Part shown: in pieces, positions 1 through 21,630 of the stretch | Layout: each line of letters begins with the position of its first letter | Position numbering within the stretch: position 1 is the first letter of the stretch | The notes under the pieces: generated by a model | The model's input: the letters and a program-made list of their open reading frames with translations, nothing else | Databases searched by the model: none | What the model was told of the DNA's origin: nothing | Made by a program: the position numbers and the translations under genes | Source of the DNA: a virus | IMG/VR virus record: IMGVR_UViG_3300030110_003550 | Span: 3,957-31,474 of that record | DNA length: 27,518 bases | Direction: 5' to 3' (one strand)

Positions 1-2029
1 ATGCTTGTCCTAATGTCATTTGAATTTTTTCGTATACTTGATCAGGTAAACCTGCCATATCTGATGATAATTTATTAAATAAATTACTAGTTCTTTCTGC
101 AGCAGCTTGTAAATCAGCTTTAAGAGCAGGATCTTTAATGTTATTTAATTCATCAATCATTTGTCTCCATAATTTTAATTCACTAGCTCTAACTTCAGTA
201 TAAGGTTGTTTACTTAAATTTATATCTATTGTTCCATCTTCACGCATAAATCCTCTTTGTATAGCTAGTCGTTTTCCTTCTTCAGTTCCGTATTCATCTA
301 TTAAATCTTGAACATTTTTTCTAACTTTTTGTTCAATATCTTTTATTTCACTTCCTTTATATCCCATAGCTCTTAAATAACTATTTACATGTGCTCGTTC
401 AAAACTTACACTATGTTTTTGTAAGTTTCCTCCTAACATTGATACTAAACCTTTTTCAGCTTTTGCTGTACCTGCTAACATTGAATATAATAAAAAATTT
501 AAAGTTCTAGTAGAAGCTCTACCTATTTTATTAGGACTAATTCCTATTACAGGAAATTTTCCTACATACCCCCATTCGCCACCTGACATCATTCCTGCTA
601 ATCCAAATAATAAAGAAGCATCTTTATACTCTGTATCTTCTAAAAACATTTCAGCAGCAGCGTATGCTCCTCCACCTCCTAGTGCCATTTGTCCTTGAGT
701 ATACAATATATCTTTTAAAGTTTCAGTAGGTTTAGCCCACGGCCCTTTTCCATAAAGTTCCTTTAAGTTATTTAACCTAGCTTGTGCAGTTTTTCTACTT
801 CCTGCTATTTTATAAATATCTGCTCCTTTTTCTAAATAAGGATATAAATATTTTTTTGTACCATCAACAGCTTTTTTTGTAGCTAATGAATACATTCTTA
901 CTGGGCCAAGCATTAAAGCTTCTGTACCAAAAGTTACACCTTTAAGAAAAGCAGTATCTTCATTTTCAGGAACATCTAAAAAATTTAATATAGCTCGTCC
1001 ATATTCAGAATTAGCTGCAGCTTTTCTTCCTTTAGCAAACATACCAAAAGCTATACTAGGTATAAAATATTTATTTAAATAATCTGCGTCTTTTAAACCT
1101 TTTACTTCATAAGTGTAATCTACAAATGCTTGATGATAAAATTCTGCAAATAAATTTGGCCCATAAAATGATTTTAGAAGAGTAGGTGAAACTTCAGGAT
1201 CTTGTTTTATATCAGGATTTTGTGCAGAGGGTAATTTTGAAGGTTCTGCCCAAAAAAGAGGTGTTCCAATCATTGCGTTAAAACCTTCTAATAAAATATT
1301 TGGTCTTACTCCACCAATTATATAAGCTTTGTTTGGATCTTTAATATTAAGATCTTTTATACTACGAGTACCTACACGTAAATAACCAAAAGCATCAGGA
1401 ATATTTTCAAAAACAGTAAGCACTAAATCTCCAACAGTTACTCCTGCTCTTGAAACTGCTTGAGGAAGGCTACTAACACTTTTAATTTGTTTAGCAGCAT
1501 ATTTTCTAGTTTCTCTAAATGGAATTACTTTATCAAGAAAATCTATAAATCCAGAATCTTTATCAGTAGGTTGGTTTGTAGCAGAGCCTAGCTCATGCGA
1601 AGACGGTACACCTTCTTCATCTCTTCGTATACCTTCTTCTTTTTTCTTTTTTTCTTCACTTTCAATTGTTGGCCAATTACCTTGCCCAAAATCACTACGT
1701 TTTTTCTCATCTAATGTTTTAGCAAAATCACTTTGTAATCTTTGAAAATATTTATCAAAAGTTCCCATATTTATTTTAAGACTTTTTCCTGTTAAAACAT
1801 CTGTTTTTTTACCTTCACCTCCCATAAGAACATCTTGTTCTTCTGATCCTGATATTGTATCTTGTAAAGATATTTCTTCTTTTTTAGGTATATCTAAAGA
1901 AGACATTTGTTCTGTAATAGGTTGTTCTTTAACAACAGGTTGTTCTTTAATAACAGGTTGTTCTTCAGTAACAGGTTTAGAGGAAGAAGTATCTTTTAAC
2001 ATTCCTGAATATTCATTAATTAAAGACAT
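1..2029 (-). CDS. Large probable ejection/internal virion protein, 3' end off the window
   Basis: The reading frame opens with ATG at 2029 (MSLINEYSG) and stays open for 676 codons to the left edge, so the C-terminus is missing. The start lies 29 bases past the stop of the preceding gene, with only a weak GGA-type ribosome site. Residues 1 to about 160 look disordered: three hexapeptide repeats of the KEQPV type, then Lys/Glu-rich sequence. The rest is a long, mainly helical region with glycine/alanine-rich hydrophobic stretches (for example ALGGGGAYAAAEMF and LLFGLAGMMSGG) that could contact membrane. I recognise no family. Size, place after the fibre genes and composition suggest a protein packaged in the capsid and ejected with DNA, as the T7 inner-core proteins are; this is inferred from position only. 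Confidence 0.75.
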   Translation of the reverse strand, partial: MSLINEYSGMLKDTSSSKPVTEEQPVIKEQPVVKEQPITEQMSSLDIPKKEEISLQDTISGSEEQDVLMGGEGKKTDVLTGKSLKINMGTFDKYFQRLQSDFAKTLDEKKRSDFGQGNWPTIESEEKKKKEEGIRRDEEGVPSSHELGSATNQPTDKDSGFIDFLDKVIPFRETRKYAAKQIKSVSSLPQAVSRAGVTVGDLVLTVFENIPDAFGYLRVGTRSIKDLNIKDPNKAYIIGGVRPNILLEGFNAMIGTPLFWAEPSKLPSAQNPDIKQDPEVSPTLLKSFYGPNLFAEFYHQAFVDYTYEVKGLKDADYLNKYFIPSIAFGMFAKGRKAAANSEYGRAILNFLDVPENEDTAFLKGVTFGTEALMLGPVRMYSLATKKAVDGTKKYLYPYLEKGADIYKIAGSRKTAQARLNNLKELYGKGPWAKPTETLKDILYTQGQMALGGGGAYAAAEMFLEDTEYKDASLLFGLAGMMSGGEWGYVGKFPVIGISPNKIGRASTRTLNFLLYSMLAGTAKAEKGLVSMLGGNLQKHSVSFERAHVNSYLRAMGYKGSEIKDIEQKVRKNVQDLIDEYGTEEGKRLAIQRGFMREDGTIDINLSKQPYTEVRASELKLWRQMIDELNNIKDPALKADLQAAAERTSNLFNKLSSDMAGLPDQVYEKIQMTLGQA
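1920..1973 (-). repeat. Three 18-bp tandem repeats inside the left-edge gene
   Basis: Three adjacent 18-base units on the plus strand start with GGTTGTTCTT and end in ACA, at 1920-1937, 1938-1955 and 1956-1973. They differ at a few positions only. On the minus strand they encode a Glu-Gln-Pro-Val/Ile hexapeptide repeat in the N-terminal disordered part of the protein. The repeat keeps frame, so copy number could change without breaking the gene. Confidence 0.85.
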
Positions 2030-2058
2030 ATTATTATTATTCCATAAAGTTATTTTTG

Positions 2059-4758
2059 TTAAGGTATTTTTGAATTTACTGCACTAATTAAATTTTTAAA
2101 TAATGTCACATCAGTTCCAAGTATATTACTTTTCTCTCCTGATCCTTTATCTACCCTCTCTCCACCAAACATATGTGTAAAATCCTCTTGTTTCATATAA
2201 TTTTTAGTTACTAAATTAGTTGCTGCAGTTTTTGTGTCAAAAAATAAATTTTTAAAATCTTCTTTAAGTCTAGTTTCTACAGGACTTTTTCCATCTTTAC
2301 GAGTAGCATTAACTTCCTTTGCATAATTTACATTTATGTTATCATACAAAAAATCAATCATTTTTTTACGTTTGTTTATAAAATCTTGAAACTCAGCACT
2401 GTTATAGTTATTTCCATATGTATTTCTAAAATAATTATTAAAAACATTAGTATATTCTTTAGAATTAGGATATTTAACTTTTCCTCTAGTATACGTTCCT
2501 TCACTTTCACCTAATTTTTGTTTATCTTTTTCTGCATATTGTTGATCAATATCTGAAAATCTTTTATTATAACGAGATACAAGTTCTTTACGTAAACTAT
2601 GCATCCTTCCATAGCCTTTTGTATCACTAAGTAGTTGATATGTGCCAGTTTCTAAAAACAGATCATTAGCAGAAGCAAAAGCACTCATAGCTGAAAGTTT
2701 ATCTCTTAATGCTTGTAATCTTGCTACTGATGCTTCTTCAGATCCCCATAAAGCTTTAAACATAACTTCAAAATCTTGATTTGAAATAGTTCTACCACCT
2801 GTTGCATTACCTTGTACCATACCAGATAAACGATATGTTAAAGCTAATTTCCTAAATTGAATAATAGATCTACGTTTATATTCTTGAGAAGCATTTCCAC
2901 TAGACATTACATCTTGAATTTCTTTCATTTTTGAAGAAGCCCAACTTAATCTTTTTACATTGGCATCATTTAGTTGTGCATTTGAAGAAACTCCATTTTT
3001 AAAATGTTGGTTTTTTTGAACTCCTGCTATTTCTAAAACAGCACCATAAAGACCAGATAATTTTCTACCCCAGTTGTCTAACGCAAGTGAATACTCTGCT
3101 TGAAATCCCATTAAATTTTTCTTTGAATCTCCTATAGGAATAAGAGGTTTTCTTAGATCTTCAATTGTATTTCCTATTTTAAGTTGAGTTTCATCACTAT
3201 CATAAAATGTTAAAATACCATCAATGTCATCCATCAAACTAGCTGTTGTCATTAGAGTTTTTTTATACTGTGCTTGTAATTTCCAATGAGAATGTCCTTT
3301 TGGTAAATTAATAAGGCGAGTATTAGAAAATCTACTATTTTTTGGTGTTCTTCTTGCAGTTTTTGTAACAATTGTATTTAAAGGATCTAAAGAATATACA
3401 GTATATAAAGCTGTAGCCATAACACCATGAACTAAATTATCTGCTCTGTTATCTGTTATTCCTTCTGTTATTTTTTCTAATTGATTTGTAAAATTTTTAG
3501 TATTTTCTGGACTAGGATTTTCAAACCATGCAGTATACGTTTCTTTTAAAGATATTTCATCTTTAAATGTTTTTTGTGTAATTGAACTTTTTTTATTCAT
3601 ATTTTCTGGTGAAATTTTTGAAGGATCAATAAAAAAAGATTTAACAGTAGGATCTATGTCTATATGTCCAGATAACTGTTGTGTGTCTGGATTGTTTTTA
3701 AACGAATTACTTGTTTGATTATACACTTGTATATCTTGTTTGTTAGATGCACTTAAAGGTGTTACAACAGAATGTGTTTTGTTTATTAAAGGTACATTTT
3801 TTTCTATTTTATTAGTATTTGTTTGACCAGCTAAATCTTTAATGTGATCTCTATCTTTAAAAATTACAGAATCATTAGACAGTTCTGTATATTGTGTACC
3901 GTTTACATTTTTGTCTATTGGAGTTGTTCTTAAAACCTCTACACTTCTTTTAATTAATTGTTGTAGATATTGACTATTCATTGCTTTAGAACGTAAAGAA
4001 GGGTTAAGTTTTTTTAAATTACTATTTGTTATATCTAAAAATTCATTATGAGCTATAACTTTTTGTATATTATCTAATTTTTGTCCTCCTCCAAAACTTG
4101 CTCCACTTAAAACTACTGCATTATATACATTTTCAGGATATACAAAATGTTCTCCTATAGCAGGATCTTTAAAATTGTCGTATAAATCTCTATTTTTTGT
4201 ATTGCTTAAATACTGAGCACGTTGATTTCTTCTTTTAGTTTCATATTTATTTGCATTAGTTTTTAAAAAAGCTGCATGGTTTGCATATCCTTTTTGAGAC
4301 CAAGGAAATTTTACAAAATTTGAAATAAGTTTTATTGCTTTTTGTTTTTCAGAAGGATGCACTTTTGGATCTTCTATTATTTTTTGTATGTTAACAATAT
4401 TAGGTAATGGAATGTCTCCTTTCTCCATACTAGCAATAGAATTTGTCATATTTTTTAAAAAATCTTCTTCTGTTTTACCTCTTCGCAGTGACGTAGCTGC
4501 AAAAACTTGAGTCTTTGCTTGAGATAGTGGAACACCTTGTCCTACTAAAGTTGATATTTGTTCTGAAGCTCCCATACCTGATTTAGATAATACGTCAGGA
4601 CTTAAAGTAGTTAATGTATTTTTTATATTTTCTCTAGTAAGTTTTTCTGCTTTTTCTTTTGCTTTTGCTGCAGCACTTGTTTTTTCTCTACCTATAAGTA
4701 AAAGTTCATTTACAAAACCTGTTGCAAGTCCGGGTTTAAGTTTAAGTCCAAGTACCAT
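2059..4758 (-). CDS. Large helical virion (probable ejection) protein, 899 aa
   Basis: Begins MVLGLKLKPG, one base after the stop of the preceding acidic gene, with GAGGA eight bases before the ATG. The protein is long, polar and rich in Lys, Asn, Ser and Thr. Its N-terminus is strongly helical (Lys/Ala/Glu-rich, about residues 25 to 50), and no clear membrane segment, signal peptide or catalytic motif is visible. Codon use is extremely AT-rich, like the neighbours on both sides and unlike the capsid genes. I do not recognise a family. Position among the genes after the tail fibres, in the slot where podoviruses keep internal virion proteins, points to an ejected structural protein. A large enzyme domain cannot be excluded from inspection alone. 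Confidence 0.8.
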   Translation of the reverse strand: MVLGLKLKPGLATGFVNELLLIGREKTSAAAKAKEKAEKLTRENIKNTLTTLSPDVLSKSGMGASEQISTLVGQGVPLSQAKTQVFAATSLRRGKTEEDFLKNMTNSIASMEKGDIPLPNIVNIQKIIEDPKVHPSEKQKAIKLISNFVKFPWSQKGYANHAAFLKTNANKYETKRRNQRAQYLSNTKNRDLYDNFKDPAIGEHFVYPENVYNAVVLSGASFGGGQKLDNIQKVIAHNEFLDITNSNLKKLNPSLRSKAMNSQYLQQLIKRSVEVLRTTPIDKNVNGTQYTELSNDSVIFKDRDHIKDLAGQTNTNKIEKNVPLINKTHSVVTPLSASNKQDIQVYNQTSNSFKNNPDTQQLSGHIDIDPTVKSFFIDPSKISPENMNKKSSITQKTFKDEISLKETYTAWFENPSPENTKNFTNQLEKITEGITDNRADNLVHGVMATALYTVYSLDPLNTIVTKTARRTPKNSRFSNTRLINLPKGHSHWKLQAQYKKTLMTTASLMDDIDGILTFYDSDETQLKIGNTIEDLRKPLIPIGDSKKNLMGFQAEYSLALDNWGRKLSGLYGAVLEIAGVQKNQHFKNGVSSNAQLNDANVKRLSWASSKMKEIQDVMSSGNASQEYKRRSIIQFRKLALTYRLSGMVQGNATGGRTISNQDFEVMFKALWGSEEASVARLQALRDKLSAMSAFASANDLFLETGTYQLLSDTKGYGRMHSLRKELVSRYNKRFSDIDQQYAEKDKQKLGESEGTYTRGKVKYPNSKEYTNVFNNYFRNTYGNNYNSAEFQDFINKRKKMIDFLYDNINVNYAKEVNATRKDGKSPVETRLKEDFKNLFFDTKTAATNLVTKNYMKQEDFTHMFGGERVDKGSGEKSNILGTDVTLFKNLISAVNSKIP

Positions 4759-4759
4759 G

Positions 4760-5398
4760 TTATATTTCCTCTTCTTCTTCTTCTTCTGCTACATCAATAT
4801 CTTCTTCGTTTTCTTCAAAAGTATCAGAAGATATATCTAAAAAACTTCCTGTATTTTCAACCATATTTGTTTCTTCAATATTTTCTTCTTCTTTTTCTTC
4901 TTCAATTTCATCTGAAGAAATTAATTTAGTATTCATTACATTAAGTTTTGGCACATTATCATCAGTATCATCTTTTAATGAAATTTTTTTCATTAAAGAA
5001 TTTACTTCTTTTTTATTAATACTAGTTTCTGCAGGATCATTAAATAAAACATAATCTATATTTTCTTCTTCTGCCATAGATGCAATAGCAATTATAATTG
5101 CAGGTTTCATTAATTCAGCCATATCAGGAGTTATAATTCCATCTGAAAATGCTTTCATAGTAATATTTGATGCAATAGTTTCTGCAGATAATCCTATTTC
5201 TAAAATATCCATTAGATTTTCTTTTTGAATAGGTTTTTCAAAACCTTGAAGTATTCCTTCTAAAGCTTGAGGTACTGAAGCTGTTAAAGGAGGTTTTTCA
5301 TAAGGTAAATCTGACATATTTGAAGCTAAAGATTGACCGGGAATTGGTCTACCTATTGGATCTATTTGTAATTTTTCAGAATCAACTATTCTAGACAT
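4760..5398 (-). CDS. Acidic protein with poly-glutamate tail, 212 aa
   Basis: I place the start at the ATG at 5398 (MSRIVDSEK), because AAAGGA lies eight bases upstream. A TTG two codons earlier would add two residues and has no better ribosome site. The start overlaps the preceding gene's stop by 8 bases. Residues 40 to 115 look folded and include a hydrophobic helix (IIIAIASM, about 101 to 108). From about residue 163 the chain is dominated by Glu and Asp and ends in a run of seven Glu plus Ile, encoded by a GAA/GAG microsatellite near 4766. Function is unknown. Such tails can bind basic partners or mimic DNA, which is inference only. It sits between likely ejection proteins, so a packaged partner or chaperone role is plausible. 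Confidence 0.78.
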   Translation of the reverse strand: MSRIVDSEKLQIDPIGRPIPGQSLASNMSDLPYEKPPLTASVPQALEGILQGFEKPIQKENLMDILEIGLSAETIASNITMKAFSDGIITPDMAELMKPAIIIAIASMAEEENIDYVLFNDPAETSINKKEVNSLMKKISLKDDTDDNVPKLNVMNTKLISSDEIEEEKEEENIEETNMVENTGSFLDISSDTFEENEEDIDVAEEEEEEEI

Positions 5399-5816
5399 TA
5401 TCAAAATCCTTTGAATCTTCTTCTATAGAAAAATTTTGTGCTATATTATTTAAACTAATTAATTGTTGATAAGAATCATGTTTTTCTAAATTTGCATAAT
5501 TATTTCGTCTATATACATTTTCTATATTTTTTAATTTTTCAATAGTCATCATTTTTCTTTTTTCTAAAGGTTGTATAAGATCTAAAAGAAAAGATTGTTG
5601 AGATTTTTTTGGAAGTCCCATACCTTTAGTATCTACTCGTTTATTTGCATCTCTTGTTTGTTGCATTATTTTTTTCCATTTTCGATCTACAAATCCTTTA
5701 GTTGCTTCTTTCTTTCTTTCTTTTTCTCTATAAGATTTTTCATCATCTTTATCAGAATCACTTGAACCTAAAAATTTATCAGCAAAAAAAGAAACTACAC
5801 TAGTTACGAGACTCAT
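5391..5816 (-). CDS. Small basic helical protein, probable virion-associated, 141 aa
   Basis: Begins MSLVTSVVSFFADKFLG, an amphipathic or hydrophobic N-terminal helix, with AAAGGG seven bases before the ATG. Residues 18 to 60 are highly charged (Asp/Lys/Glu/Arg runs), followed by a helical C-terminal half. The stop overlaps the next gene's ATG by 8 bases, and the start follows the preceding stop by 11 bases, so translation is probably coupled on both sides. No family recognised. The N-terminal hydrophobic helix with a charged body would suit a small ejected or membrane-associated virion protein, but nothing in the sequence proves this. Confidence 0.72.
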   Translation of the reverse strand: MSLVTSVVSFFADKFLGSSDSDKDDEKSYREKERKKEATKGFVDRKWKKIMQQTRDANKRVDTKGMGLPKKSQQSFLLDLIQPLEKRKMMTIEKLKNIENVYRRNNYANLEKHDSYQQLISLNNIAQNFSIEEDSKDFDNV

Positions 5817-5827
5817 AATATTACCCT

Positions 5828-7303
5828 TTATTTAATTAAATAAGATTTTCCTACATCTAATGCTGCATCTACAAAATTAGCTAACAAAGCTCCTGAAGCT
5901 TTTGTATCTTCATATTCCATTTCTTTATCAAACATTGTAGAAGCAAATTGATTTCCTATGCTTGTTAAAGCTAACTGCAATGCTCTTTGAGCATCATTTT
6001 CACTAGATGTAAAAGAATAGTTAGCTTCATCTCTATACTTTTGCCATAAATTATTTTGAGAAGCTACTGTTAATCCTAACAATGAAGCAGCATTTATTTG
6101 ATTAGCAGCATTTTCTGTTACTGTATTTGCTGTATTAATACTTCTTCTCCAAACTGCATTTGATTGATCTATTTGTAAACGCATATTAGTATTAAATTTT
6201 TCTCTAGCATCTTCTATTTTTGCTTCGTATCTAGACATAGCGTTCATTTGATCTACATTAAATTGATCAGTAGCTGCTGCTCTGTTAGAGTTATTCGTAT
6301 CCACAGTTGTTTTTAATTGATCATAAAATTTATCAATTTCATTTTTAAACTGAGCATTAATTCTTTTTGATAAATTTATTTCTGATTGATCTTTAAATAA
6401 TCCTTCAGTTTGTTTTTGATAAGATAAATGTGCAGACACTTGTGCATTATTAGCATTTTGTAAATCTATTTTTAAAAATGATTCAGCATTAACTTTAGCT
6501 GCTTGTAATCTATTATCTAAATTTTTCATATTTAATGAAGCCATAGTAGCAGCATTAGATAAAACAGTTTGTTGTTCATTAGTTAAATTTTGTAGTTGTA
6601 TTTTAGAATAAGCTTGAGCATCTGCAGCAGCTATAGGTAATGCAGTTTCTACTAAAGCTTGTACCATTGCAGCAGAAGCCATTGAAGAATCACTTAAACC
6701 ACGTTTATTCATTATTGATTTAACTGTTCTTAATGGTGCTGAAGCCCATGAAGGCATCTCAGAACCAGTTTGTAAAGAATCCATAATTTTATTTAATTGG
6801 TATTGAACAGTAGCTTCTTGAGCTAATTCTTGTGTAGCTGCAGTAGATAATGCTCCTAAAGACAACATATCTTCTTTAGTTTTTGAATCTGTAATATCTG
6901 CTGCATTTATTTGTGCATCTGTAGAAAGAACACCTGTAATACCTTCTACTGTTCCAACTTTACCAACTGTTTTTTCAACATTTTGTATTTCATATGCACC
7001 AGTATTTTCTGGAGATACTACATCTGTACTATCAACAGCTTGAGAAGTAGGGAGAGATACATCTGTTGAAAGCAGTTTTCCAGTAGTATCAATATCTTCT
7101 CCTGTACCTACTGTTTGTTGAATAGGTTTATATTCTCCTGAACCTAAACTTGGAGTTATTCCACTAGCAGGATCAACACCTAAATCAGTAACACCAGTAG
7201 CTTGTTGTCCCATAACATCTAAAATAGGTTTGTTACGTTCTTCAACAGTTAAAGGTCTAGGTTCTGTAACAGTAGTAGGTGTTTGTTCTGTTTCTTCAGC
7301 CAT
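5828..7303 (-). CDS. Probable internal virion/DNA ejection protein, 491 aa
   Basis: Starts MAEETEQTPT, with AAAGG eight bases before the ATG. Residues 1 to about 130 are Thr/Val/Gly/Pro-rich and look unfolded. From about 135 to 470 the protein is a long Gln/Asn/Ala-rich helical region with few Cys or Pro, typical of coiled, rod-like internal proteins of podoviruses. It ends in a short hydrophobic helix (ALLANFVDAALDV). The pattern of a disordered head and long Ala/Gln/Asn helices matches ejection proteins such as T7 gp14/gp15 or P22 gp7/gp20 in character only; I see no sequence identity by eye. It is the first gene of the ejection cluster after the small membrane-protein trio. Confidence 0.75.
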   Translation of the reverse strand: MAEETEQTPTTVTEPRPLTVEERNKPILDVMGQQATGVTDLGVDPASGITPSLGSGEYKPIQQTVGTGEDIDTTGKLLSTDVSLPTSQAVDSTDVVSPENTGAYEIQNVEKTVGKVGTVEGITGVLSTDAQINAADITDSKTKEDMLSLGALSTAATQELAQEATVQYQLNKIMDSLQTGSEMPSWASAPLRTVKSIMNKRGLSDSSMASAAMVQALVETALPIAAADAQAYSKIQLQNLTNEQQTVLSNAATMASLNMKNLDNRLQAAKVNAESFLKIDLQNANNAQVSAHLSYQKQTEGLFKDQSEINLSKRINAQFKNEIDKFYDQLKTTVDTNNSNRAAATDQFNVDQMNAMSRYEAKIEDAREKFNTNMRLQIDQSNAVWRRSINTANTVTENAANQINAASLLGLTVASQNNLWQKYRDEANYSFTSSENDAQRALQLALTSIGNQFASTMFDKEMEYEDTKASGALLANFVDAALDVGKSYLIK

Positions 7304-7338: not shown

Positions 7339-7575
7339 CTATCCATCGTAAGGCAGCATTTTCATGGGTCTGTAACTTCCATCCATTGTCTTGTGCATTT
7401 CTAGCTTGCCTTTTGTACAAACCCAACGTGGCCCTTGATACGTGTTACTCTCTCGTTCTATTTTACGTTTAACTTTTAAACACTCACTTAAAGATTTACG
7501 TGGTGTAAACTCCATAACTGTTCCACCTACACTTGCTATCATTTGCAATATAAATCCTGTAAATATTTCTATCAT
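7339..7575 (-). CDS. Small membrane-anchored or exported protein with two cysteines, 78 aa
   Basis: ATG at 7575 overlaps the preceding stop by four bases (ATGA), a standard coupling arrangement. Residues 1 to 20 are hydrophobic (IFTGFILQMIASVGG), a signal peptide or signal anchor. The remaining 55 residues are basic and contain Cys32 and Cys53, spaced to form one disulfide if the domain lies in the periplasm. I recall similar short proteins with a hydrophobic start, two Cys and an RWVC-like motif in marine podoviruses, without a known function. With its two upstream neighbours it forms a compact membrane-protein cassette. A lysis role (spanin-like) or a tail-associated role are both possible. 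Confidence 0.75.
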   Translation of the reverse strand: MIEIFTGFILQMIASVGGTVMEFTPRKSLSECLKVKRKIERESNTYQGPRWVCTKGKLEMHKTMDGSYRPMKMLPYDG

Positions 7576-7964
7576 TTTCCGTTAGTATATTTTAAGTTTC
7601 TTTGGCTATCCTTAAGATCTTCAATATTACCCATAGCTTTCTCAACATCTTTTTGTAACCGTGATATGTTAACAGCATTGTGTGCCATAGATTCTATAGT
7701 TGTTTGTATCTTTTCTACTTGACCAGAAAGATGCTCTATTAACATATACTGTTCTTTGTCTGTAGGACTCTGTGGTGTTTTTATACGGAACTCATTGTTC
7801 TTTTCTAAATCTGATTGCATTAACTGTCCATTAGTTTCTAGCTTATTAAGTCTTTCTACTACACCAAAGTAAGCCCACGTTCCTACAGCTACTGCACCTA
7901 CAATACTAATAAGGTTTCGTATTGGCATTGCTACTGACGTATTAGAGTTTACTTCAGTTGCCAT
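7572..7964 (-). CDS. Single-pass membrane protein with coiled coil, 130 aa
   Basis: Starts MATEVNSNTSVAM directly after the upstream stop, with no gap. Residues 17 to 36 form one transmembrane helix (LISIVGAVAVGTWAYFGV). The following residues, about 38 to 125, are charged and helical, with heptad-like spacing of Leu and Ile. The topology (short N-terminal tail, one membrane helix, long coiled coil) resembles an inner-membrane spanin subunit, or phage proteins annotated only as membrane proteins. No lipobox or second membrane helix is seen, so it is not a typical holin. It overlaps the next gene by four bases. Similar proteins recur in marine phages by recollection; function is unproven. Confidence 0.78.
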   Translation of the reverse strand: MATEVNSNTSVAMPIRNLISIVGAVAVGTWAYFGVVERLNKLETNGQLMQSDLEKNNEFRIKTPQSPTDKEQYMLIEHLSGQVEKIQTTIESMAHNAVNISRLQKDVEKAMGNIEDLKDSQRNLKYTNGK

Positions 7965-8522
7965 TTATATACATCCTTTGCAAGCCCAGCTAATGTACCA
8001 ATACATACCTAATGCTACACCTATAATTATTAATAGTTTACCAAACTCCTGTAGTGCTTTCTTAAACTTTTTTCTGTTTTCATAAGCTCTATCTTTAGCT
8101 TCTTCTGCTTGTCGTTTTAATCGTTCATCTCTTTCTTTAATACGTTCTTGTCTAGTTTTTAATATAGTAGTCCACGTATCTGCACCAAATCTAGCATTGA
8201 GCATTAGAGACATATTACGTATCTCTTTTTGTGCTTGTTTCTTTTCTATAATTTCAGCAGCTATTTCTTGTATACTCGTACCATCACCTTCATCACCGCC
8301 AATCTTTTTACCTATAAACGTTTGCCATTTACCAGCAATACTAGACTGAGCTTTCTTTTTCTTTTCAGCAATTTTTTTATCAATGTGTTCTTGACCACTA
8401 AACACATTGTCTATGTGATGGCTAATTTCATGTATATCTTGGCAAGTATGTATTACTTCCTTAATACCTGTTACAGCACTCTTAACTAATTGTATACCAA
8501 CTAATGTTTCTGCTATTACCAT
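7965..8522 (-). CDS. Helical protein with C-terminal membrane segment, 185 aa
   Basis: The ATG at 8522 shares one base with the stop of the large fibre gene (TAATG). The N-terminal half begins MVIAETLVGIQLVKSA and is amphipathic. Residues 70 to 155 are Lys/Glu/Arg-rich and helical, probably a coiled coil. Residues about 160 to 178 form a membrane helix (LLIIIGVALGMYWYISW), followed by a short Cys-containing tail. I recall proteins of this type, starting with VAETLVGI-like sequence and carrying a conserved RFG..TW element, in marine podoviruses; here RFGADTW is at about 111 to 117. Their role is not established. Tail anchoring in the host inner membrane is plausible, and a holin or spanin-like function is an alternative. 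Confidence 0.8.
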   Translation of the reverse strand: MVIAETLVGIQLVKSAVTGIKEVIHTCQDIHEISHHIDNVFSGQEHIDKKIAEKKKKAQSSIAGKWQTFIGKKIGGDEGDGTSIQEIAAEIIEKKQAQKEIRNMSLMLNARFGADTWTTILKTRQERIKERDERLKRQAEEAKDRAYENRKKFKKALQEFGKLLIIIGVALGMYWYISWACKGCI

Positions 8523-16482: not shown

Positions 16483-17424
16483 TTATCCTTTATACTTTGC
16501 TACACGACCACCATAAGCATATTTTTTACCTTTTTTAATCATACCACCACCCATATAATACTGTGGCATCTTTTTCTTTTTAGCAGGTGAAGACATTTTT
16601 TTAGCAGACATGTCAGAAGCACCTACCATACCTCCTCCAGCAAGTTCATCTCCTGATTTTGCATTGTAGTCAAATTTTATACCAAGTTTTCTAGATAAAT
16701 CTCCTAACATTGTTCCTTTTTTTCCTGCAAATCTAAAACGTGGTTTTTCTTGTTTTCTTTCTTGAGATTTTTTCTTTGCATCTTCAGAAAATTTTGGTTT
16801 TCTTCTTGTCATACTTTTTGTATCAACAGATTCATCTATAACAGGATCTTTTTTAACAGATTTTTTTGTAGAAGAACGATCTCTGTACAAAGAATACTTA
16901 GCTGGTTTTCTACCTTTATCTCCACCTCTTGCAGTTTTTTTATCAAAAGAATCAGCTTTCGTTGAAGTAGGAAGTTTTAATGAAGCTCCTGCACGAATTT
17001 TATCAGGATTTTTTATAGAGTTAAGTTTTACTAATGTTGCTACTGTTGTATTATTTTTTTTAGCAATTGCAGATAAAGTATCTCCACTTTTTATTTTATA
17101 AGAACCTGAAGAAGATTTTGATTTTTTCTTTTTTGCAGTAGCACCTTTATCTTTTTTCTTTTTTACAATAGTATCTAAAGGTTCTGGCTGCTTAGATATC
17201 TTCCTAATAGTATCTAAAGGTTCTGGCTGCTTAGATATCTTCTTCTTCTTCCTAATAGTATCTAAAGGTTCTGGCTGCTTAGATATCTTCTTCTTTTTCC
17301 TAATAGTATCTAAAGGTTCTGGCTGCTTAGATATCTTCTTCTTCTTCTTTTTCTTTCCTACTTTAGAATCATCTTCTAATACTTCTAAATTTAGTTTTGG
17401 TATTTTAATTGTTGGTTCTGGCAT
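16483..17424 (-). CDS. Lysine-rich LysM-domain protein with 16-aa tandem repeats, 313 aa
   Basis: I start at the ATG at 17424 ([10 protein letters not shown]) because AAAGGAGA lies five bases upstream; an in-frame ATG at 17472 would run into the previous gene and has no ribosome site. Residues 27 to 87 hold four copies of a repeat whose core is [11 protein letters not shown], separated by Lys runs. Residues 109 to 151 form one LysM domain ([20 protein letters not shown] ... AGASLKLP), which binds N-acetylglucosamine chains of peptidoglycan. The rest is basic and disordered, with Gly-Gly-rich C-terminal motifs ([15 protein letters not shown]). No catalytic domain is seen. It may be a virion protein that contacts the cell wall or DNA during entry. 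Lysine content far exceeds that of its neighbours. Confidence 0.8.
17167..17334 (-). repeat. 48-bp tandem repeat in the LysM gene
   Basis: Four near-identical copies encode a 16-residue unit with core [11 protein letters not shown] and a Lys/Arg linker. Distances between the plus-strand GTATCTAAAG marks (starting at 17171, 17210, 17258 and 17306) are 39, 48 and 48 bases; the 39-base spacing reflects loss of three codons from a linker. The copies agree over about 36 bases each, which suggests recent expansion or ongoing slippage rather than old divergence. Confidence 0.92.
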
Positions 17425-17446
17425 TTTATTCTCCTTTATATTAATA

Positions 17447-17938
17447 TTAAGTTGCAGCAAAGACACGTACATTAGCTGTACTGCCTGATGAGTTATAACA
17501 TTCTATTCGGTCTATTGTATCTGCAGACCAATTTGTTTCCCACGTATCTATTTCACTTTGATGATTGCTCTCATTAAACGTACCAGCCATATTACCCATG
17601 TTACGGCTATCATCACTGCCTAGAACAAAAGGTACACCAGCAATTAATTTAACACAGAAACCGTTCTCTATATTATTTCCTGATAGTGTTCCACCTTCAT
17701 TACAAACGAGTTGTAGCTCTACGGTCTGATCTGCTTCTATCCACAAAAAATCAAAATCTGATAAAAGATCATCATTCCATACTTCTGTAAGCGTTGAGTT
17801 AGTAATACTATAACGCTTATCAAAGTAATGTGTAATTGTTATTGAATCAGTAGCAGTAGTGCTTCCACCAGTAATAGTATGACTATCATCATCAGGAATA
17901 TCTACTGTAAAGTGTGTAGTCAAACTTAATGTAGCCAT
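17447..17938 (-). CDS. Small beta-rich structural protein, 163 aa
   Basis: Starts [20 protein letters not shown], with AAGGAG nine bases before the ATG. Composition is Thr/Ser/Asp/Asn-rich with alternating hydrophobic strands, for example [12 protein letters not shown] and [13 protein letters not shown], and ends NVRVFAAT. This suggests a single beta-sandwich domain. Three Cys are present, with no signal peptide and no membrane helix. Located between the oxygenase and the LysM protein, 22 bases before the latter. I do not recognise a family. A decoration, head-completion or fibre-accessory role would fit such a compact beta protein in a virion operon, but the sequence does not decide between them. 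Confidence 0.75.
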
Positions 17939-17951
17939 TCGTCTTTACTCC

Positions 17952-18587
17952 TTACTTACCCCATTCTTTTTTAAGGTACGTTTGTATTAAAGTTGATTTA
18001 ATAAATATTTCTTTGTTTTGATCCATAAGGTAAGAGTTTACCTCGTACATCGTGTGAAGAAGAAAAGATTGTTCGTATGTTACGTTAGAGGATAACCATC
18101 CAATAATATTTTCTCTTTCACCTTTTATTATTCTTTTTACACCATGTGGATAAATTATAGGAAATATAACAGCTTCACCACTCGATAGCTTTCGTTCTAT
18201 GTTTCCTAGAGGTGTCTGTAAAACAAATTCTCCACCTTCATAATCATCCGATAAATTTACACTAAAACCGTAATCAAAATATATGTTGTTAGATTTAGGT
18301 TTAGCTTTAAAAGAATCTACGTGTATATCGTAAAAATCACCCTCAACGTATTTATTATAAAAATTTACAGAAACTCTGTTGGGACAATAAACTGAATCAA
18401 TGTAGTGATTATCATAAAATTTATTTGTCAGTATTCTACGTACATTTTCAGGTATACCGATAGATTCTGTGTTACTTTTAGAATTTTTAATAGGTTGTGT
18501 AATTGAACCGTTTATAAATTTAGCTTTACGTATTCCTTTTGCACAATCTTTAACTTCATTATCTTCAAGCAGCTTTAAAAAAAACAT
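17952..18587 (-). CDS. 2-oxoglutarate/Fe(II)-dependent oxygenase, 211 aa
   Basis: Residues visible: His89 and Asp91 in the segment YDIHVDSF give the HxD iron ligands; His148 in YPHGVKRI is the distal iron ligand; Arg158 is placed to bind 2-oxoglutarate. The strand motif DDYEGGEF (114 to 121) and the SSGEAVIFP segment (135 to 143) are typical of prolyl-4-hydroxylase/PKHD-type members. These enzymes couple 2-oxoglutarate decarboxylation to hydroxylation of proteins, nucleobases or small molecules; the substrate here is unknown. Length fits a single-domain enzyme. AAAGGA lies six bases before the ATG. It sits downstream of a hairpin after the capsid genes, and such phage-borne oxygenases are frequent in cyanophages. 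Location among structural genes suggests virion protein modification, or passenger status. Confidence 0.85.
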   Translation of the reverse strand: MFFLKLLEDNEVKDCAKGIRKAKFINGSITQPIKNSKSNTESIGIPENVRRILTNKFYDNHYIDSVYCPNRVSVNFYNKYVEGDFYDIHVDSFKAKPKSNNIYFDYGFSVNLSDDYEGGEFVLQTPLGNIERKLSSGEAVIFPIIYPHGVKRIIKGERENIIGWLSSNVTYEQSFLLHTMYEVNSYLMDQNKEIFIKSTLIQTYLKKEWGK

Positions 18588-20136: not shown

Positions 20137-21051
20137 TTACTCTACAGAATCCACAACTCGACCTTCCTTTACGGCTCTATCAATCTCTTTTTCTAAAAGC
20201 TCGTACTCTTTAGGTTTTAATCGTGAAATTTCTGCTATAGACCAAATCTTTGTGTCATCTTGAAAACTATCTAAGCTTCTGTTTGCTGTGGTCTTTGTCA
20301 CAGATTGAGCAGCTTGGTTTTTAGATGAGCTAGATTGTGGACGTTTATTGGCTTTCTGATTTGCACGTTTTGTGTTACGAGGAGCACCGATATCTGCTTT
20401 GAAGAGATCGACAACTCTAGCTGCCCATTTTACGTCAGTATTGTTTTTAAAAATACCGTCAGATATATTGTTAGGCTGTTCTTCTAGCCAGTTTAGAAAA
20501 TTTTCATTTTCTTTGAGATCAACAAAATCAGGATGTATATTTAAAAGTTGTTTTTCGGCTGTTTGTATTACAGCTTCTTGTTCTTTGTAACGCAACTCTT
20601 CTAAACGTCCTTCAATATCTTTCACTTTTTCACTGGCTTGTAAAGATGATATAGTTTCCACTACATCGTAGACATCAGGATATTTTTCTTTGAAACTTTC
20701 TAACTCTTCTTCAGTCTTGGGCAACTTTTTTATGTCATGCTTTTTTGCCTCTACTGCAAGCTTTGCTTGAAACATTTCTTTTTCCTGTTTCCACTCATTT
20801 AACTTAGTGTCGTAGTGACGTTTTAAATCACCGTAACGCTTTTTAAAATCGTGTGTCTGTTCTTTACTGGCCTTGGTCTGTGCTAATCCCTCAGTATCTT
20901 TTCGAGTAGTCTGCATATCTGCAGGGTCTTGAAGATCACTTTCATCGGAATCATCATCTATCGCAAGGTTTCGCCTATAATCATTCTGATATGGGGTAGG
21001 CTCTAAGTCTTCTCCTTCGTTATCATCAGTTTGTACATTTTCTCTAGCCAT
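20137..21051 (-). CDS. Scaffolding protein, 304 aa
   Basis: A strongly charged, mainly helical protein directly upstream of the major capsid gene. Residues 1 to 60 are acidic and disordered, 63 to 165 form a coiled coil rich in Lys, Glu and Gln, and 225 to 260 are basic, Ser/Gln/Asn-rich linker. The C-terminal 35 residues (IWSIAEISRLKPKEYELLEKEI) form a short helical unit that, as in P22 and T7 scaffolds, likely docks on the coat protein. AAGGAGAGG precedes the ATG, so expression should be strong. It directs procapsid assembly and leaves before packaging. Length and layout fit podovirus scaffolds. Confidence 0.88.
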   Translation of the reverse strand: MARENVQTDDNEGEDLEPTPYQNDYRRNLAIDDDSDESDLQDPADMQTTRKDTEGLAQTKASKEQTHDFKKRYGDLKRHYDTKLNEWKQEKEMFQAKLAVEAKKHDIKKLPKTEEELESFKEKYPDVYDVVETISSLQASEKVKDIEGRLEELRYKEQEAVIQTAEKQLLNIHPDFVDLKENENFLNWLEEQPNNISDGIFKNNTDVKWAARVVDLFKADIGAPRNTKRANQKANKRPQSSSSKNQAAQSVTKTTANRSLDSFQDDTKIWSIAEISRLKPKEYELLEKEIDRAVKEGRVVDSVE

Positions 21052-21141: not shown

Positions 21142-21630
21142 TTACGAAAGAAACAACGTAAAAAATAATTCGTTACGTTGCTTCAATTCTTTCTTAGTGC
21201 CGTTAGCACTATAATATCTTTTGTATTGTTGTCTCATACCTTCTAAGTCATCATCACATACTGCTTTTACAAACTTAGGAAATTTTTTTAAACCACCGCC
21301 ACCTAAGTTGTAAGCAAAATCTATGATCATGCATTTACCGTTATCTGAGAGACTGTCAAAATCTTGATTAAAATGACTCTTCATAACTCTTCTAGCTACT
21401 TGCGTAGCATTGTCTACATCGTTCATAAACATCTGAGTAATAGCTGTCTCTGACAAACCTTTGTTTGCCGTTTCAACTTCGTCATCTAATAGTTTGTGTC
21501 CGTAACCAATTGTATCGTTACCACCTTCAGGTGATGCGTGAGGATACCAAACTTGTTCAGATACGTGCCATCCAACTTTGTTACCGTTCTCTACTTTTTT
21601 AAGAAAGTGTAAAAAACTATCGTAGATCAT
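21142..21630 (-). CDS. Phage lysozyme, GH24 type, 162 aa
   Basis: The chain starts MIYDSFLHFLKKVENG; Glu14 is in the place of the T4 lysozyme catalytic Glu. The TIGYGHKL motif (40 to 47) matches the conserved substrate-site segment, and Thr40 corresponds to T4 Thr26. The position of the catalytic Asp (six before that Thr) is Pro34 within PHASPEGGND, so the second acid is displaced or absent; nearby Glu35 and Asp39 could substitute. Length is close to T4 lysozyme. It hydrolyses peptidoglycan glycan chains. The ATG overlaps the previous stop by four bases. No signal peptide is present, so export would need a holin or delivery in the virion. Its place between portal and scaffold genes is unusual for an endolysin. 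Confidence 0.9.
   Translation of the reverse strand: MIYDSFLHFLKKVENGNKVGWHVSEQVWYPHASPEGGNDTIGYGHKLLDDEVETANKGLSETAITQMFMNDVDNATQVARRVMKSHFNQDFDSLSDNGKCMIIDFAYNLGGGGLKKFPKFVKAVCDDDLEGMRQQYKRYYSANGTKKELKQRNELFFTLFLS

Follow-up and report, generated by a model that had tools for sequence, protein, structure and literature searches.

The window analyzed here is a 27,518-nucleotide stretch that covers positions 3957–31474 of a 31,474-base IMG/VR virus record (IMGVR_UViG_3300030110_003550, here L002), and our subject is the block of genes at its left end. A preliminary description had placed five genes of an ejection-like apparatus at positions 1–7303, following the fibers. Five minus-strand open reading frames (ORFs) are found there, and we name them A-B-C-D-E from right to left (Table 1). 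The block holds the same position in 15/15 relatives; in the window, three small genes lie between the fiber genes and A. The block had also been called extreme in its AT content, which the composition bears out: the guanine-cytosine (GC) fractions of A, B, C, and D are 0.315, 0.249, 0.274, and 0.285, versus 0.348–0.413 in seven head, tail, and fiber genes, and the GC fraction runs at 0.278–0.323 across five 1500-base steps up to position 7500.

Table 1. Genes and sequence features of the A–E block. Positions refer to the window unless L002, the parent record, is named.
Feature	Positions	Strand	Description
Gene A	5828..7303	-	491 amino acids; N-terminal third disordered, remainder predicted as three long helices; conserved module anchor
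A repeat region (codons 207–440)	5984..6685	-	11-residue repeat, Asn/Gln-rich
Gene B	5391..5816	-	141 amino acids; small, charged
Gene C, from ATG	4760..5398	-	212 amino acids; gp14-sized conserved anchor
Gene C, alternative TTG start	4760-5404	-	214 amino acids; the ATG lies two codons in
Gene D	2059..4758	-	899 amino acids; gp15-sized; hydrophobic N-terminal segment
D conserved domain	2320..3021	-	D residues 580–813; QGGxTGGRTISDQDV-like motif in its clade
Gene E, first piece	2..2029	-	676 amino acids; cut by window edge
Gene E, second piece	L002 1104-3854	same strand	916 amino acids from first ATG; conserved domain at 694–833

Gene E is interrupted at the window edge by a run of ten N (L002 3947–3956), which falls inside the gene and is likely a scaffold join. 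Beyond it the same strand is open. A single 1,397-residue protein from a related locus (L018) matches the first piece of E at 308–361 and the second at 1236–1320; hence, judged by this match, E is one gene encoding about 1,600 residues in all. The remainder of this left-edge gene, which the preliminary description had lacked, is thus located in the parent record, with the ten N remaining between the two pieces.

The related portal and the shared order of late genes identify the phage as an HMO-2011-type podovirus or a relative of that type. Portal identity is 53.9% to HTVC033P, 52.2% to HTVC115P, 51.9% to HTVC104P, 49.1% to HMO-2011, and 42.6–49.6% to roseophages, rhizobial phages, CHOED, and others. 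The affiliation is judged on late genes, as the replication genes fall outside the 31-kb record. A passage in one paper sets the HTVC103P type apart as separate (PMC11288001), and a passage in another takes the tube B gene, with ejectosome candidates after it, as the mark of such phages (PMC10386132).

We fetched 15 relatives for comparison of the module, among them HTVC033P, HTVC104P, HMO-2011, phiM6, and CHOED. All 15 carry the same order, namely tail and fiber genes, A, a variable number of additional genes of small or medium size (from none to several), C, D, and E, and the A–E slots in these records are annotated as hypothetical protein, except for one "huntingtin." At a blastp threshold of 1e-3, A matched in 105/105 relative pairs and C in 103/105, and the window proteins matched the relatives in 15/15 (A) and 12/15 (C) cases; D and E matched in 2/105 and 13/105 relative pairs. 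Searched by tblastn, A has matches in 27 phage records. By these comparisons, A and C are conserved, and divergence is rapid in D and E. In IMG/VR, a search with an alignment of A returned at least 574 relatives; among the best 80 loci, which we kept, the A profile was present in 80/80 and the C profile in 77/80.

Relatives of D and E were found within a narrower circle. The window's clade, as defined by E blastp, comprises 19 loci (L018-L025, L027-L034, L044, L053, L076), to which an iterated search with E added L026. Iterated searches delimited two clade-conserved domains, D from residue 580 onward (19 relatives) and residues 694–833 of the second piece of E (20 relatives). A D-domain alignment found 136 relatives in IMG/VR, of which 80 loci were kept: 57 hold A+C+D+E, ten D+E, eight A+C+D, two C+D+E, one C+D, and two D only. 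In the 23 incomplete loci the absent parts fall, by coordinates, at or past the ends of the sequenced DNA. By hhalign, neither D nor E of this clade could be tied to other subgroups (E ≤0.9%, D ≤9.0%); the highest D value between subgroups, 11.6%, was to L029, itself a member of the window's clade. Among the HMO-2011-type relatives compared, D and E have no detectable homologues outside this clade, and tblastn of the window's D and E, L028 D, and L032 E in phages returned no match. When IMG/VR was queried with D or A as a single protein, no relatives turned up, although alignment queries did find them. None were found for B, whose slot is variable or empty among the relatives. The window shares the late-module position and order, and homologous A and C, with other HMO-2011-type podoviruses, but detectable homology of its D and E is confined to its own clade. 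As a set, the module is strongly conserved in HMO-2011-type and related podoviruses.

The window proteins match no recognizable family, as the preliminary description had stated. The best PHROG E-value was 0.093 and the best Pfam E-value 0.0083 (15.5 bits against a cut-off of 27), and profile searches with A, C, D, and E against Pfam, PHROG, and PDB yielded no usable match for the window and no placement in known non-ejection families. The statement needs amending for the set taken with its relatives, which forms a conserved module with a tie to LUZ24-like phages through the E proteins of three relatives. Two sets of PDB matches were rejected: the C profile matched designed pentatricopeptide repeats (best 2e-5) and the E-domain profile matched designed helical repeats and a spore protein (best 3.8e-5). 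In neither case did any stretch pass alone, so we regard both as chance helical-repeat matches.

In order and size, C, D, and E (212, 899, and about 1,600 residues) fit the podoviral ejection operon, a cluster located after the tail genes, for which a passage in PMC8954989 gives a gp14-like protein of ∼200 residues, a gp15-like protein of 431–982, and a gp16-like protein of 609–1337. The same passage has most gp15-like members matched by size and synteny, and describes the wall-cutting domain as not universal, being absent from P22 gp16. C starts with a PIPGxSLTxxPxxxPWExPP-like sequence and has an acidic tail. In a scan for the transmembrane helices expected of a gp14-like protein, one hydrophobic segment was detected in 45/77 C proteins, and never two, while T7 gp14 itself has none at the same setting. 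The T7 (gp14-gp15-gp16) and P22 (gp7-gp20-gp16) sets share operon logic and size order with C-D-E, but they have no sequence similarity to them and no 11-residue-repeat counterpart of A, and window-clade E lacks a recognized wall-cutting domain. LUZ24 gp53-gp52-gp51-gp50 run parallel in order and sizes (313, 126, 505, and 1055 residues) and are annotated as phage particle or virion structural proteins, with the gp50 family matching E of the three relatives. On the other side, the window's E has no such match, gp53 has no 11-residue repeat (z 1.8, on the scale given below), and the A, C, and D profiles find nothing convincing in LUZ24.

The tie to LUZ24 is provided by phrog_6958, which covers gp50 end to end and matches E of Slicky01, HTVC104P, and HTVC115P (3/8 relatives searched), with no match in T7, P22, or HTVC010P. 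Furthermore, phrog_30152 matches both Slicky01 E and LUZ24 gp50, and an iterated search from Slicky01 E unites the three E proteins with gp50. By tblastn, Slicky01 E also matches 54 records, the majority of them from LUZ24-like and KPP25-like Pseudomonas phages; several are labeled structural or internal particle protein and others hypothetical. We found no published proteomics behind these labels, and PMC4482731, on a LUZ24 relative, nowhere uses the term mass spectrometry. Lysozyme-type domains are present in E of HTVC104P (near 1469–1634; phrog_7, 4.6e-20), which also matches phrog_2083, "internal virion lysozyme motif" (5.4e-9), and in E of HTVC115P (1431–1584; phrog_7348, 1.2e-19); the 17 E sequences searched (15 relatives and the window's two pieces) gave no further lysozyme-type match at 0.01. 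The position of the block, its gene order, the protein sizes, and the lysozyme domain and LUZ24 gp50 family in the relatives' E proteins all support the ejection reading with which the locus was first described.

Separately, an E protein from the set of 15 relatives has a match to the large polyvalent protein domain LPD38 of Pfam (1.3e-23). Outside the window's clade, many E proteins open, within their first 100 residues, with a short, phage-specific motif in two to four copies (e.g., L038, L046, L048, L097, and L012). In a 7-mer test allowing two mismatches, at least two copies occurred in 32/56 of these proteins, versus 1–8/56 in seven later 100-residue stretches and 15/280 shuffles; the same test gave 2/76 for D proteins and 2/20 for window-clade E. 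A stricter per-sequence test at 0.01 gave 9/76 for E and 0/76 for D. The motif copies are possibly a packaging tag. The first 30 residues of D (window 4669–4758) are hydrophobic, with a best 15-residue Kyte-Doolittle value of 1.2 in the window's D and a mean over 76 D proteins of 0.85, versus −0.04 at residues 101–130 and −0.09 at 201–230.

The unusual part of the module is A. An AlphaFold2 model of A (67 sequences) displays helices at residues 207–300, 307–409, and 413–490, with a mean predicted local distance difference test score (pLDDT) of 71.1 and a predicted template modeling score (pTM) of 0.34. The second piece of E (63 sequences) was modeled as mostly helical (mean pLDDT 66.1, pTM 0.45), and both models made fit the earlier characterization of the block's proteins as helical or disordered. 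The Gly/Ala-rich hydrophobic stretches reported at the same time are weakly and partly reproduced: a 19-residue Kyte-Doolittle scan at 1.1 gave segments in A (208–226 and 472–490), C (90–121), and the second piece of E (562–580 and 807–825), and none in B, D, or the first piece of E. A channel through the envelope built from these stretches is unsupported by such scans of the module proteins, and we dropped the idea.

The predicted helices within residues 207–440 of A rest on an 11-residue repeat. In 129 aligned relatives, 73 of the 78 gap runs relative to the window's A in this region are multiples of 11, and the net length difference is 0 in 81 relatives, a non-zero multiple of 11 in 43, and another value in five (−12 twice, −1 twice, and −2 once); these sequences are related and the runs are not independent, a single +66 event accounting for 31 of them. 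Counted as distinct events, 12/14 indels are multiples of 11, as are 12/12 of those of at least four residues, compared with 1/28, 11/152, and 4/22 such indels in other parts of A. Net changes in whole 11-residue units range from −22 to +176 residues. Self-similarity at lags 11, 22, and 33 yields z values of 4.7 for the window's A, 5.9 for its repeat region, and 6.2–15.5 in the 15 relatives; the best of five control lags in the relatives reaches 1.5–9.5 (9.5 in ctYwJ313, 5.1 in CRP-207), in each case below the z at 11. Our set of 22 known proteins from T7, P22, LUZ24, and HTVC010P scored −2.0 to 2.6 by the same 11-lag measure, phiX174 H scored 4.1, and the P22 needle gp26 scored 5.4 on a heptad. 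The suggestion that the apparatus is of a different type gains weight from this repeat, which is unseen in the tested T7, P22, LUZ24, and HTVC010P proteins.

The hydrophobic profile of A has its maximum at a period of 3.72 (helix 1) or 3.67 (helix 2) and is weak at 3.5. The angle between the hydrophobic and Asn/Gln (N/Q) classes is 155 degrees in helix 1 and 163 degrees in helix 2. Between residues 229 and 409, Asn occupies one register in 12/16 repeats (p 0.0002), and a like register test in 15/15 relatives gave fractions of 0.47–0.82 (p ≤0.005). Asn and Gln together make up 27% of the region as a family mean and 17–34% in single members.

A comparable arrangement is known from phiX174 H, described in a passage of PMC7354561 as a decameric helical tube, 170 Å long and 22–25 Å wide, with hendecads at its start and with Asn, Gln, or Arg at 18/23 inward positions. 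In residues 151–194 of H, we find Gln at one register in 4/4 hendecads (p 0.007). H and A are alike in their 11-residue repeats, fixed-register amide residue (Gln in H, Asn in A), and long helices; they differ in that A is longer, employs Asn rather than Gln, and comes from a double-stranded DNA tailed phage. Our model of A is of the monomer only, and the Asn register of A is compatible with a decameric barrel of the phiX174 H type, with amide or guanidinium residues facing inward. Among the papers located on hendecads in bacteriophages, one deals, by title, with a DNA conduit, that of phiX174.

On balance, we lean toward reading the block as the module with which an HMO-2011-like marine podovirus ejects its genome, with A as a helical DNA conduit. 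We infer that C, D, and E would fill the T7 gp14, gp15, and gp16 slots, being packed in the head with the DNA, exiting through the tail, and helping to build the envelope passage. Wall cutting would be supplied by another protein, since no wall-cutting domain was recognized in the window-clade E proteins (0/30, chosen from 88). A would be an added component, with long helices bearing hydrophobic and Asn/Gln residues on roughly opposite faces. The most likely association of these helices would be a straight bundle or barrel with an amide-lined lumen, serving as a DNA conduit through the periplasm like phiX174 H. We propose that A is an amide-bearing helical DNA conduit resembling that of phiX174 by convergence. 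A more specific version, in which A is a hendecad Asn-ladder tube that carries double-stranded DNA across the periplasm, convergent with phiX174 H and tuned in length by whole 11-residue units, possibly to the host envelope, is offered tentatively and we hold it to be somewhat doubtful.

Several results weigh against this interpretation, the 0/30 count for the wall-cutting domain among them. E, at about 1,600 residues, is larger than the published gp16-like range, and phrog_6958 has no match in the window's record. Foldseek at 0.001 returned no match for the second piece of E in PDB or BFVD; the best BFVD row had an E-value of 0.005, and the rows up to 0.1 include uncultured-phage proteins named lytic transglycosylase domain or large polyvalent protein domain, along with tail proteins and unrelated coiled coils. 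For A, Foldseek found no match in PDB at 0.001. The model of A is a monomer of middling confidence; its best VIA-align 2 Z of 6.7 may, for long helices, mean only a common arrangement, and neither phiX174 H nor phage ejection chains are among the 50 matches listed. The faces of the helices at period 11/3 are partly significant by permutation, with p of 0.09 (helix 1) and 0.0005 (helix 2) for the hydrophobic face and 0.03 (helix 1) and 0.39 (helix 2) for the N/Q face. phiX174 H itself exceeds its best control lag modestly (4.1 at 11 versus 3.2). No homology between A and H was detected (5.9 bits by hmmsearch, where the bias term was 13.5; 0.2% by hhalign), and thus the two are alike in kind only. 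Comparison of the A, C, D, and E profiles with the 22 known proteins gave nothing convincing (hhalign ≤1.4%), the window's D and E included; this comparison agrees with the earlier statement that the block does not resemble the T7 or P22 sets by sequence. In so small a set, hmmsearch gave some small E-values, the best for the D profile to P22 gp16 (9.1 bits, 0.0007); these were read as composition given the hhalign values, and the idea of A as a T7 gp14 relative was dropped after the same comparison. The ejection reading of the window rests on the module and its position. We found no published virion or functional data on this phage group: the passages located on HMO-2011 and ejection concern other phages, and the papers listed on ejection proteins and hendecads include, by title, none on this group.

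The main rivals to A as a conduit are an outer rod and a membrane-coating helix. If C, D, and E were ejection proteins and A an external coiled-coil rod, such as a tail needle or a fiber shaft, its location right after the fiber genes and the three small genes would be apt. The whole-repeat length changes suit a rod, needles carry such repeats, as in P22 gp26 (though on the heptad), and in trimeric stalks Asn can also occupy a fixed core register. However, core Asn would share the hydrophobic face, whereas the N/Q class of A lies opposite it at the angles given above (partly significant), and A accompanies its partners C, D, and E wherever a locus is long enough to show it, while fiber genes vary. 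We consider the rod unlikely. Still less probable is an amphipathic helix of the alpha-synuclein or perilipin kind that coats host membranes after ejection. Repeats of 11 residues are also typical of lipid-binding helices, but those repeats are lysine-rich, and helix 1 of A is low in charge (0.138) and Asn/Gln- and Ala-rich. Given A's neighbors, we prefer the conduit over both. Similarly improbable is a role of the A–E products in assembly or inside the head without ejection. Assembly factors can be mostly helical, as these proteins are, but a scaffold-like gene (by position only) already lies at 20137–21051, between the lysozyme-like and coat genes, and the relatives' lysozyme domains and LUZ24 gp50 match point to internal virion proteins.

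The module supplies borders and conserved anchors for an ejection apparatus, and with them concrete targets for proteomics and structure work. If A does form a tube, phages of two unrelated types would share one solution, a helix with an 11-residue repeat and amide residues, and this would point to a general rule for DNA conduits. Because A changes length by whole repeats, the length-fitting idea is open to direct testing.

Some neighboring genes were also noted. The three small genes from the fiber gene to A occupy window positions 7339–8522, and two of them have strong hydrophobic segments; the middle one matches phrog_20984 (2.8e-34, function unknown) and overlaps the sole DNA match in the phage collection, to pelagiphage HTVC041P (77.9% over 86 bases). 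To the left of the window, E is followed by two small ORFs on the same strand (L002 327–1095); the 136-residue one of the two shows hydrophobic stretches by eye and may encode a holin. Also by eye, an ORF at window 21142–21630, between head genes, is T4-type lysozyme-like, and one at 16483–17472 has lysine-rich tandem repeats and a LysM-like stretch. In several relatives, a lysozyme or endolysin is annotated near A. Among the tail genes, the ORF at 17952–18587 is 2OG-Fe(II) oxygenase-like by eye, and HTVC033P has two annotated ones.

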